Shown piece by piece: positions 18,901 to 36,900 of a stretch of DNA of 64,000 nucleotides; position 1 is the stretch's first letter; each line of letters begins with the position of its first letter. Position numbers and translations under genes: made by a program. The notes beneath the pieces were generated by a model, which was given only the letters and a program-made list of their open reading frames with translations, was not told the origin of the DNA and made no database searches. The DNA is from Ricordea florida (taxonomy: Eukaryota; Cnidaria; Anthozoa; Corallimorpharia; Ricordeidae), in the NCBI GenBank assembly GCA_949710005.1, contig OX453275.1, positions 35,601,294 to 35,665,293 on the forward strand. Direction: 5' to 3'.

Positions 18901-21900
18901 GATAAGCGCTCGTTGTCTCATTGCATTTCTATGAAATAATCAGCTACCTGTCTTTGTCAGGTTATAGTGCGTTTTACGTGATATTGCAAATTTAATATCA
19001 CAGTGTTTCTACACTGTCACTGTTGTTTGTTTTGTTTCAGTATTTCCATAGCAGAAGGAAGTCCTGTAACATCCATCTCGTATCGTAGCTGGATGAACCG
19101 AGAGGCGCGGGACCCAGTTCTGCTCGTAAATGTAGCCATCAATTCGCTCTGTCTCTATGGGTCAGTAGTATATACATGTACATAAACAATTCCACGGTAG
19201 TTGACAATTATACTGCGAAATTGCGCCGACTCTAACTGAAGCGGCCCATGAGATTTTTCGTTTTATTTTAAATTTATGATTCTCGCCTGTTTTCACACAT
19301 GTCCAGTGAGACCAGTCGCAATTTCCAGATCGATAGGAATTCGGAAGTGTTAAATTTTAAGGAGGGAGGAAAGCAGAATGCTCAAAGAAAAACCCTCGGA
19401 ACAAGGAGAGAACCGACAAAAACTCATTCGTAAAAATCTATCGTAAAACCTCGGGATTCGCACCCAGGCCACAGAGGACGGTGGCGAGTGTTATTGCCCA
19501 TGCGTGATGTGTAGATATGGGGATCCTGGCACATTTGATAAACTAGGTGAGACGTGGCTCTTGCCAAGATTTCATAAATACTTCATCAAAGCCCCAACCA
19601 AGCCTTGACCAAACCCTTTGCCAAGACCCAACCAAGCCCCTACCAAGACACAACCAAGACCCCACCAAACCCTAATAAAACTTTCATCAAACATTCCAGG
19701 TGCGGAGCGCAACAAACCCTTATCAAACCATAGCTAATATGTTACAAAATCGATGTGAATATGATACGAGGGTCTGGCACATTTAATAAAATAAAAATGA
19801 TTTAAAAATAAATTAAATAATGATTTAATAAGAAGAAGAATTAATATACAAAATGGAACAAGAATTAAGAAGATTAAATGTTGTGCAACTGAAATATTTG
19901 GCTAGATGGTATAATATTCCTGGCCGTTCACGTTTTATTAAAAGAGATTTTGTTGAAGCATTGAGTAATATTCCTGAAATAACTAATAATATTAAACAAA
20001 TTATTACTAATATTGCTGGAATTGTTAATGAGTTACGTAATACGCCAATGAGGCCAATAGATCAACCAAATTTACCTCTTCCAATTCCAAATATTGAGCT
20101 GCCTCCAATAAGACCAGCAAATCGTCCAAATTTACCACCTTTAACTATTCCTCAACCATTGCCCGGTTCACCAGATAGCCCTCCACCGGGTAGGCCACCG
20201 AATCGTCGGCCGGGAACTCCACCAAATGTTAAACCGCCTAAACCTCCACGCCCTCCACCACCTATAATAAAAACAAAACAACCACCAAAACAAAATAATT
20301 TTTTTGAGAAAGCAATAAACAAGTTTTGGAATGTAGTAAAACCATACATACCTGAAAAAGTAAAAAATAAAGCATTAGTAGCAAAAAATAAAGTAGAAAA
20401 AGTAGCTAAAAATTTTTTAGAAAGATATAAAAAAGTAAATAAACCCAAAGAAATAAAGTCACCGCCTAAAAGAGATAATAAGAAAGGTGAAAGAAAAAAT
20501 AATAGGGATTATGAGAAGGAAGTTGCAAGACCAAAAAGAAATGAGGGAAAAGAAATTGCAGAAGATTTTACGCCAAGGCAATTTGAATCAGCTATTAATG
20601 GTAATTATTTAAGTTATAGGATTGAAGGAAATGAAAAGAATGATGAAAAGGTATTCTTACATAAAATCAAACCAAAAGTTATAGATTTACTTAGAAAGAG
20701 AGTTGAATCACATAATTCATTAAAGACAAAATTTATATTTACATGTATGTTTAAGAGAAAAAAACTTAACACTGAGGAAATTGAATACTGTGATACACCC
20801 TTTCCTTCTGAAAAATCAGAAATTGTTCTTGAGGCAACAGATTTATCAGAATTATTTGATAGATTAACAAATCAACAACTTAAATTATTTGATGAATTTA
20901 TAAATAATGGATCTGGTTGGGAATTTGTAAGAGTAGTAATGTTTGACATTTTCATAGATCGTTTTGTTCCACTTTTAGGTGGATCTTATATTCAATTACC
21001 AAAAGAATTGTTAAACAAGAATGCGATTATTAATCCACAGAATTATAATGATGATGAATGTTTTAAGTGGTGTGTAACACGAGCTGTATACCCAACCGAT
21101 AAAAATCCACAAAGAATAACTAAAGAATTAAAAGAACAATCAAAGAATTTTAATTGGGATGGAATTAATTTCCCAAGCACAATACAAGATGTTGTTAATT
21201 TTGAAAACCAAAATGATTATGATATCTCTATATATGGGTATGATGAGAAAATAGGAGTATATCCTATAAAAAGAAGTAGTAAACGTGGATTTAAATTGAT
21301 TAGATTACTTTTATTAACAGAAGAAACAAATGAAGAAAATAAAGATGAAGAACCAAATAAACACTTTGTTTTAATAAAGAATATTAGTGCACTTATACGC
21401 AGTCAAGTTACTAAACGTAAATGTAAGTTATACTTTTGTGATAATTGTTTGCACCATTTTCATTTGAAAAGCTCATTGGAAAAGCATGAAGGATATTGTT
21501 ATTTATACAATGAAGCAAGGATTGATATGCTAAAAAATAAAGATGGTAGTCCATGTTTTCTTTCTTTTAAAAATTTTGTGAAAAAAATGAGAATACCTTT
21601 TGTTGCGTATGCTGATTTTGAGTGTGTTTTGAAACAAATAAAAAATAATGAGCCTCTAGATAAAAGCAAAAGTTTTACAAATAAATATCAAACACACAAA
21701 CCAGTTGCATTTGGTTGTTATATTAAGAGTTTTAATGAAAAAATATGTAAATCAAGATTTTATAGATATACAGCCGAATCAGAAGATGATGTAGCGCAGA
21801 AATTTGTTGAATATCTAGAGAAAGAATTTAAGGAAATTTATAAAAAATGTATTAGTTATAATGTAAAAAGATTCAAAAAGTTTAATAAAGAGAATATAAC

Positions 21901-33900: not shown

Positions 33901-36900
33901 TACCACTAAAATTACTATTAACATGAGTGTAATTAATTTGAAACTCTACTATTTCTCTTTCACCCATATTCTCATATTTAATAGAAAGTGCTTTTGATAA
34001 TGTGTATAAACAATCTTTTTTTATTAATCTTAAAAAATCCATATTATTAATTTTTTCATTGTTAAAATATTCCAAAGTAAAACCAAAATCTAAACATTTT
34101 TTTATTTTCCTCTTATATTTTTGTCTTTCCATCTTTTTTTTTTTTTATTTTATTTTATATATTTAAATCATTTTTATTTTTTAATTTTATTCTACATTCC
34201 TTACAAGAAGCTTTCTGTTTACCATGTTCACATATTTGCGATCCTCCACATTCTTTACATTGTTGTTTTTGTTTATTATGTACGCAAATTTGAGTGCCTT
34301 TACATTCTTTACAACGATATTTAACTTTTCCATGTATACATATTTGTGATCCACCGCATTCTTTACAAATATATTTAACTTTTCCATGTACACATATTTG
34401 TGCTCCTTTACAACTTTTGCAAAAATATTTAACATTATCATGAATGCATATTTGAGGCCCTCTACATTCTTTGCAAAAATATTTATGTTTTTCATGTATG
34501 CAAATATAAGGACAAGTAGTGGTGACTTTTTCAATTAAATTTATAATTTTTTCTTCTTCAAACTTTTTAAACTCATTAATAAAATCTTCTCTTAAATATA
34601 GTTTTGATCTTCCTTTAATTTTTAAATAACTCGCAATTCTTTTCAAATTTGTTTTAGTCAAAGTTTCTAATTTTTCCATCTTTAATCATTATTTCATTTA
34701 TTTTTAAATCATTTTTATTTTATTAAATGTGCCAGACCCTCGTATCATATTCACATCGATTTTGTAACATATTAGCTATGGTTTGATAAGGGTTTGTTGC
34801 GCTCCGCACCTGGAATGTTTGATGAAAGTTTTATTAGGGTTTGGTGGGGTCTTGGTTGTGTCTTGGTAGGGGCTTGGTTGGGTCTTGGCAAAGGGTTTGG
34901 TCAAGGCTTGGTTGGGGCTTTGATGAAGTATTTATGAAATCTTGGCAAGAGCCACGTCTCACCTAGTTTATCAAATGTGCCAGGATCCCCATATCTACAC
35001 ATCAATGCGCCAACCTTGCTTCCCGTCCGTTTCAAAGTTGCGCCTTCTCCTTCCGTACAACCGCAACCGTTACCTGGTTTGCAAGCTCAGCTATAGGCTG
35101 AATCAATCAAGAGATTTTCTACAGCTGGAAAAATGGTTAAATCGCCATGTTTTATTTCTTTACCTACATGCGAAACTGTTTATTATCGCAATATTTCTAA
35201 AAAAAAAAAACAAAAGGTGGAACTTGACCCAAGTTCCCTGATCTTGCAGGAAAAAATTGAGTTTAGTATTAGTAGCTTTAGGCAAGTAATTTATGGCCCG
35301 TTTTGAGAACGTAATCAGTAAGCAAGGAAGCAAATTCAACAAAGCCGATTAAGGAATCCAGAAACTCAAAGCAAATAAAAATCAACATCAGCGAGCGCGG
35401 GAAAAACGCTGGCGACGTTTGGTTTTAGTGCATTTTTGATTGGTCGAGAGTGCAAAACAAGAACCAATCGCGAAATTACTTTGGACTTAGAGTTGAACCT
35501 GAACAGCCCTAAGTCACTATTAGAGAAATCTGTAAACCTTTTAAGCGTAAAGAAGTCTGCCTGTGACGATCAAAATCGTCTGGCGTTAATTAACCAGAGT
35601 AAAATTTATATTTATTTATTTATCATTATTTCGCCACACAGAATAAATTACAAGTAGAATAGAAAAGATAATAAATAAGCTAATTACTGTTAAATTTAAA
35701 TTATACATACAACTTGGAAGGAATAACTATGGCGCAGAAGTCACCGAGAAGCAGAGGGGAATACAGATTTTCCCCCACGGGCAATTTAAATACTAGGCAG
35801 TATTTAAAAAGAAAGAAAAAAGACGTGTATTTAATTATATAAGTTTGTTTAAAACTTATTCTGTATTCTGTCTGACCCTTAAAAATGGTTTGATCACATG
35901 TTTAAATATATTAAAAGTCGGGGCGTCTTTGATGTTATTCGGTAATGAATCCATATTCTAGGACCTTGAAACAAGATGGAAGAATTCTTAATAATTATTT
36001 GTTCTACAGATATGAGGTCGATAAAAGTCAGAGTATCTTGTTGAATATTGATGAATCTGATTTCCAGTTTGAAAAATCTGAGTAAAAGCAACAGGTAAAT
36101 CGTCATTATGATACAGGTACATGAAAGAACTTACTTGGAGCGAGTAAATACTTAAAACATCAAGAATTTTCAAATTTGCTAAAAGAGGTTTACTTGAAGC
36201 CTTGTAGTCAGCCTTAGAGATCGCCCGGACTGCTCTATTCTGTAGTAGGTAAATCCGTTTCAGGTTGGTAACGTAAGTAGAGGCCCAAATTAAATTGCAT
36301 TAAGTAAGATATGGATAAATAAGCGCATTATAAAGTCACTCTCAGGGTGTAAAGGGTTAACCGTTGCGTGTTGTCACTTGCTTGTTCAGGGTTGCTGACG
36401 ACATGGGTGGTTTGACATTAAAGAAATCATTTTCCATTCAGCATAAGACTTGCAGTGTAAGGAGTTCCTTTTGCCCCCTCATGTCATTCAGGCAGGGCGC
36501 ATGCGTGGGTAAGTATCTCACTGCAGCACATCCACGATTTAACGCTGAATCGGAAAAACGTTCAGCCGTCGCTTTATGTGAAGCAACTGACGATATCTCT
36601 CGCTTTTTCGGAAATAGCTTCTTTTGGTCTCTTTCTAGAAATTGATATGAATGTAGCTTTCATTCGTAGAAAATTGAGCCATACACGATATGGCTGAGCT
36701 GATGCTTGGGAGGTTAGCAGTCAGAGTTTGCATTAACCCTTGGTCAGTGTCTAATTGGTGACTAAAAGTTATTCGCTGCAGAGTTGCTGTGCAAATCGTT
36801 TCTCTGTCCTAATATACGGACTGATCTTTCCGATTTCATATGATTTTTTTTATTCCCAGGGAATAGTCTGTTTCCAGAAAAAGATATATTATGATGTTCC

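Follow-up and report, generated by a model that had tools for sequence, protein, structure and literature searches.

A 64,000-nucleotide stretch of the genome of the corallimorpharian Ricordea florida (GenBank assembly GCA_949710005.1, contig OX453275.1, forward-strand positions 35,601,294 to 35,665,293; hereafter the window, whose own numbering is used below) contains a 15,500-bp virus-like element that is probably a recently integrated member of a lineage of Polinton-type DNA viruses associated with animals, a lineage that spreads by replication and recombination and probably as particles. By its predicted gene content, which pairs a family B DNA polymerase (PolB) with a retrovirus-like (rve) integrase, the element is a Polinton. 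The capsid genes of its sampled relatives are mostly open, which suggests a lineage that kept producing virus particles, and the module exchange seen between young insertions suggests that copies replicated together in a single cell.

The element, its repeats, and the flanking duplications, the latter two without assigned strand, are placed as follows.

19500..19504, target-site duplication ATGCG, left copy
19505-35004, element, 15,500 bp, outermost letters TGATGTGTAGAT...ATCTACACATCA, termini TG...CA
19505..19825, left terminal inverted repeat, 321 bp, first letters TGATGTGTAGATATGG
34684..35004, right terminal inverted repeat, one mismatch to the left repeat, CA end
35005..35009, target-site duplication ATGCG, right copy

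The sole mismatch within the 321 bp of the inverted repeats lies at offset 309 and the next at offset 321, and ATGCG abuts the element at both termini with no spacer. This comparison of repeats and flanks bears out the initial annotation, made from the letters alone, which had described 321-bp repeats with one mismatch, TG...CA termini, and ATGCG on both sides. When the 538-Mb genome was searched, the terminal 16-mer was found at 27 sites, forming 13 inward-facing pairs 15.3–15.9 kb apart and one lone site, and its reversed counterpart at none; because of this paired spacing and the empty control, the element ends are not a product of chance. The element has a G+C content of 31.9% against 38.9% and 38.1% in its flanks, and 13 plausible genes span 87.7% of it.

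When the left repeat was searched against the same genome, 44 matches came up, only the best candidates being scored, and matches to the family lie on 16 contigs of at least 24.7 Mb and on contig C17. Ten repeat pairs, that of the window included, were compared: eight are identical, the window pair has its single mismatch, and the pair L025/L026 has two mismatches and nine gap columns. Nine of the ten show TG...CA ends and an exact 5-bp duplication, and in the tenth (L021/L022) the duplicated AAAGG is shifted by one base; the duplicated sequences have no consensus by eye, CTTTT being seen twice. The window repeats, with one mismatch in 321, support a recent insertion, as had been claimed. Exons encoding WD40 repeats flank the element on the + strand at 13461-13631 (27.9 bits, cut-off 27) and 37180-37329 (26.0 bits, slightly below the cut-off), and a regular-expression search for additional WD40 exons found none. 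Since such exons stand on both sides, the element appears to lie within a single WD40 gene, and to that extent the earlier placement in a WDR13 intron holds.

A conserved 30-mer of the capsid gene, searched with up to three mismatches, has 3,021 sites genome-wide, and the reversed 30-mer, used as control, has none. If every site marked a full element, the family would occupy ~47 Mb, which is 8.7% of the genome; this figure is an upper extrapolation and not a measurement. A polymerase 30-mer has fewer sites (702), but the set from which it was picked was less diverse, and the ratio of the two counts therefore carries little information. Two same-strand integrase and capsid matches lie 11.8 kb apart at G000 C15:24184555-24198827 and 11.4 kb apart at C10:29840859-29854526; both spacings are below one element length and therefore indicate tandem or nested copies. 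A capsid homolog search returned 1,132 relatives at E ≤ 0.001, many of the best 120 on contigs hundreds of kilobases long, and the capsid family is therefore widespread. One capsid cluster (P0104, 66% identity) represents 4,980 member sequences, and another data set may therefore carry a still larger load.

Among the best-scoring protein matches, reading frames carried no stop in 32 of 33 for the polymerase, 102 of 102 for the capsid protein, 83 of 83 for a conserved 522-aa protein, and 122 of 122 for the integrase. A set of 17 polymerases, window included, was drawn from open matches, so that its 17/17 open frames provide no independent count. Two further samples depend less on gene similarity. 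Of the 23 elements that the repeats had marked, the first took 20 (the window, C6:17.6 Mb, and C13:13.5 Mb were omitted), oriented by their polymerase, capsid, and 522-aa protein matches, and had a full capsid frame at 19/20 loci; the twentieth, L067, whose integrase on the + strand shows that the element is reversed, had been read at the wrong place and was excluded from the capsid counts. The second took every fifth of the first 100 of the 3,021 capsid sites, and it favors intact copies because all of these have zero mismatches and lie on C1 and part of C2. It likewise had a full capsid frame at 19/20 loci, and at another 20 such loci the 522-aa frame was full at 19. Degraded copies alone, the outcome that the initial annotation had named as telling against it, are thus not what the genome holds: the copies examined, in part from best-scoring sets, are mostly open.

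Ratios of nonsynonymous to synonymous divergence (dN/dS) were calculated from Nei–Gojobori counts with Jukes–Cantor correction, over pairs that are not independent of one another. For the capsid gene the ratio was 0.094 (17 copies) and 0.127 (20 copies), with a ratio of medians of 0.081 (20 copies); it was 0.197 for the polymerase (17 copies), 0.232 for the 522-aa gene (20 copies), and 0.272 for the penton gene (17 copies). Every-fifth loci lacking a usable frame (capsid 1/20, 522-aa 1/20, penton 4/20) were excluded from the capsid value of 0.127 and from the 522-aa and penton values. An early capsid value of 0.061 was set aside, its copies having been picked by protein similarity, which biases the ratio low. 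On these ratios the capsid genes are under purifying selection, and since they are both open and constrained across many copies, capsids would therefore have mattered during spread. The same argument from capsid constraint has already been made for cyprinid Mavericks (PMC8097293). Capsid constraint also lends indirect support to the earlier suggestion that the element may still be mobile or virion-forming. The 522-aa gene is more divergent than the capsid gene (best database match 82% vs. 99%; median dN 0.181 vs. 0.085, at different loci), which would fit a protein that is exposed.

The polymerase and capsid trees are in strong conflict, and the polymerase and capsid gene of the window are kin to different sets of copies. 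Synonymous divergence (dS) between the window and the copy at C10:0.22 Mb is 0.010 in the polymerase and 0.767 in the capsid gene, whereas for the copy at C13:0.43 Mb it is 0.112 and 0.011, respectively, and across 136 pairs the two measures are uncorrelated (rho 0.095). In the polymerase tree the window and five copies form a clade (support 98/100) that the capsid data reject (approximately unbiased test, p-AU 3.7e-55), and in the capsid tree the window and the C13 copy form a clade (support 100/100) that the polymerase data reject (p-AU 1.2e-66); the clades were picked after identities had been seen, so these values are descriptive, and the corresponding log-likelihood gaps, 503 and 489, are very large. 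The window integrase is 90–91% identical to those of the five polymerase-nearest copies, and its closest relative, at 98%, belongs to a different locus.

Sixteen ATG-initiated frames of at least 80 aa touch positions 19000-35500. Three were set aside, namely 34975-35241, which leaves the element, 29643-30095 (-), which lies opposite a longer frame, and 34187-34495 (-), which lies within one, so that of the 15 open frames first reported the genes stand as open and their number falls to 13.

19853..24133 (+), protein-primed-type family B DNA polymerase, 1426 aa, by motifs; Endonuclease_7 profile above cut-off
24091..25080 (-), retrovirus-like DDE integrase, 329 aa, Pfam rve
25350..26576 (+), major capsid protein, double-jelly-roll family by profile, 408 aa, Capsid_N
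26650..27291 (+), A32-type genome-packaging ATPase, 213 aa, Pox_A32 42.2 bits (cut-off 22.8)
27326..27853 (+), protein without assigned function, 175 aa
27922..28371 (+), lysine/glutamate-rich protein with one hydrophobic stretch (by eye), 149 aa
28643..29035 (+), small membrane-protein candidate (by eye), 130 aa
29086..30336 (+), coiled-coil protein with hydrophobic C terminus (by eye), 416 aa, weak SMC-like coiled-coil matches only
30375..30971 (+), glycine-rich hydrophobic (membrane) protein candidate (by eye), 198 aa
31105..32673 (+), conserved protein with C-terminal hydrophobic helix, 522 aa
32902..33537 (+), penton-like (minor capsid) protein, 211 aa
33578..34132 (-), accessory protein without assigned function, 184 aa
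34155..34679 (-), accessory protein with SAP-like N terminus followed by Cys/His zinc-site repeats, 174 aa

The polymerase consists of a SAP-like N terminus, a Cys...His stretch resembling a vOTU protease domain, and exonuclease and polymerase motifs in the expected order, which we take to be ExoI-III and A-C, with an EndoVII-like zinc site between ExoI and ExoII; a PDB sequence search gave no match. The integrase scores 37.8 bits with rve (cut-off 32.6), and its catalytic triad, reported as DDE in the initial annotation, is likely D74, D136, and E171. In an alignment of capsid homologs, 23 of 29 members match Capsid_N at E ≤ 0.01 (best 2e-7). A structural model of the penton has virus pentons as its top matches, and two proteins of Tetraselmis viridis virus S1 are among its structural matches. 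The 522-aa protein is probably a late or virion protein; its model (mean predicted local distance difference test score, pLDDT, 63) had no PDB match at E ≤ 0.001, and neither its homologs nor those of the penton had a telling Pfam match. The first and last genes, which adjoin the two repeats, share the SAP-like N terminus (19859-20014 on the + strand and 34512-34676 on the - strand; 29% identity over 55 residues, E 7e-4, in a single comparison), and a common role at the genome ends is possible.

With the Polintons/Mavericks of animals (Polintoviricetes) the element shares a PolB, recognized by motifs alone, with a Cys...His stretch ahead of its polymerase part, an rve integrase, a capsid protein recognized by profile, a penton, a packaging ATPase, inverted repeats, and a length of ~15 kb. 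PolB and the rve integrase are the pair that names Polintons (PMC4642659). The element differs in its 5-bp duplication, where 6 bp is characteristic of the group (PMC10045372, PMC8097293), a length that lies outside the gene-based definition, and in its TG...CA termini, where vertebrate Polintons end in AG/AGT (PMC8097293). Unlike many Polintons it also has no recognized Ulp1/adenain-type protease, an enzyme identifiable in 74% of Polintons and hence not universal (PMC4028283). Polinton-like viruses (PLVs) resemble the element in having no recognized maturation protease and in the two Tetraselmis virus proteins matched by the penton model, but they generally lack the PolB and rve integrase pair (PMC4642659). 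Adintoviridae share a PolB with an OTU-like stretch, an integrase, a capsid, and a penton, but their integrase bears a C-terminal chromodomain (PMC11071296), whereas no chromodomain was among the Pfam matches of the element integrase; of the earlier Polinton/adintovirus identification, the Polinton-type gene content stands, and the element is not classed here as an adintovirus. Two sea-anemone (Nematostella) Polintons carry a PLV-type capsid protein and were called possibly chimeric (Yutin 2015, PMC4642659). Compared by description, they share PolB, the rve integrase, and a capsid protein detected by Capsid_N with the element, and a protease is missing from PLVs as well. The element may belong with these "chimeric" Polintons, a likeness by description that serves as a lead. 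Among animal capsid proteins, only those of cnidarians fall outside the main Maverick-Polinton cluster (PMC10120064), and the element, again compared by description, fits this published picture.

Replication, packaging, and particle release can be sketched from the general behavior of these families. The polymerase, starting from a protein primer at the inverted repeats, would copy the linear genome, and the integrase would link its TG...CA ends to host DNA across a 5-bp stagger. The capsid protein, penton, and ATPase would package element DNA, and the membrane-protein candidates may act at an internal membrane or in entry or exit. Copies replicating within one cell would recombine, giving polymerase, integrase, and capsid modules separate histories, and capsid genes would remain open, where they would otherwise decay, because particles, or at least capsid-dependent transfer, belong to the cycle.

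Several observations weigh against a virus lineage, a reading drawn from genome sequence. No library polymerase profile matched the polymerase, so that the earlier report of all its catalytic residues keeps its ordered motifs and loses profile support. The capsid protein of the window scores 23.8 bits with Capsid_N, 0.2 bit short of the curated cut-off of 24, and neither it nor the capsid profile found a match among PDB sequences. The penton matches have root-mean-square deviations of 6–7 Å and low TM-scores, the penton frame was full at only 15/20 every-fifth loci, some perhaps clipped by the fetched stretch, and penton dN/dS reached 1.23, with no more than 87 of 136 pairs below 0.3. An Ulp1/adenain-type maturation protease was not recognized by Pfam over 15 frames or NCBIfam over 10 proteins, searches that a divergent one could escape. 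Pattern scans of IMG/VR with the capsid protein alone, the capsid alignment, and the polymerase confirmed no relative, a weak result because the method needs conserved peptide words. This lack of a confirmed relative among viral metagenome contigs, like the ~3,000 capsid-gene sites in a single genome, is also what would be seen with a purely intragenomic self-synthesizing transposon that copies and reinserts itself in the germ line with capsid genes as passengers. Passengers should decay, however, and most of the loci sampled keep their capsid and 522-aa genes open, with dN/dS well below 1, which makes such a transposon quite unlikely.

The mosaic might instead have arisen mainly among integrated copies, by gene conversion or unequal crossing-over, and not by recombination between replicating genomes, an account of the mosaic only, which is compatible with a virus lineage and seems to us unlikely as its main source. 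Conversion among chromosomal copies could account for part of the mosaic and also counts against that lineage. The copies are numerous and alike enough for ectopic exchange, and some same-strand integrase and capsid pairs lie only 11-12 kb apart (C15:24.19 Mb). Young insertions, whose repeat pairs are identical and which each have a 5-bp duplication of their own, nevertheless already differ in module combination, and exchange therefore probably preceded insertion. Retention of the load by the host because it serves an antiviral or other function, an idea put forward for elements of protists (PMC10120064), would suit copies that are open, constrained, and abundant; nothing here ties them to another virus, and constraint on their own capsid is explained otherwise, so we regard it as highly improbable.

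It has long been asked whether Polintons are viruses or transposons. A 2021 vertebrate survey reported that Polinton particles had not been observed and found no genome with more than 38 intact copies (PMC8097293). For corals, a high Maverick load has been published before, with 5.20% of one genome, 6.74% of another, and 1.41% of a third tabled as DNA transposons of this kind (PMC12005156), and protists can carry thousands of capsid genes per genome (PMC10120064). The titles and abstract openings surveyed in the literature included none describing this element family or 5-bp duplications of Polintons. With ~3,000 capsid-gene sites and capsid genes that appear open and constrained, the virion question would become directly testable in one animal, and the family offers a natural experiment on module shuffling. 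We advance only tentatively, as a view that may well prove too strong, that an integrating double-stranded DNA virus exists here as a living population within one animal genome, with hundreds to thousands of intact particle-forming proviruses that superinfect the germ line and freely shuffle replication, integration, and capsid modules.

Elsewhere in the window, Gypsy/retrovirus-like remnants lie on the - strand at 12008-12196, 12543-12854, and 12989-13219. The first matches rve at 28.6 bits, below the cut-off of 32.6, and the other two have, by eye, the look of RNase H and reverse transcriptase, 12543-12854 being without a Pfam match. Repeats occur at 8478-8767, where a 145-bp unit is present twice with 97% matches, and at 7840-7948, where two copies of a 54-bp unit show no difference.

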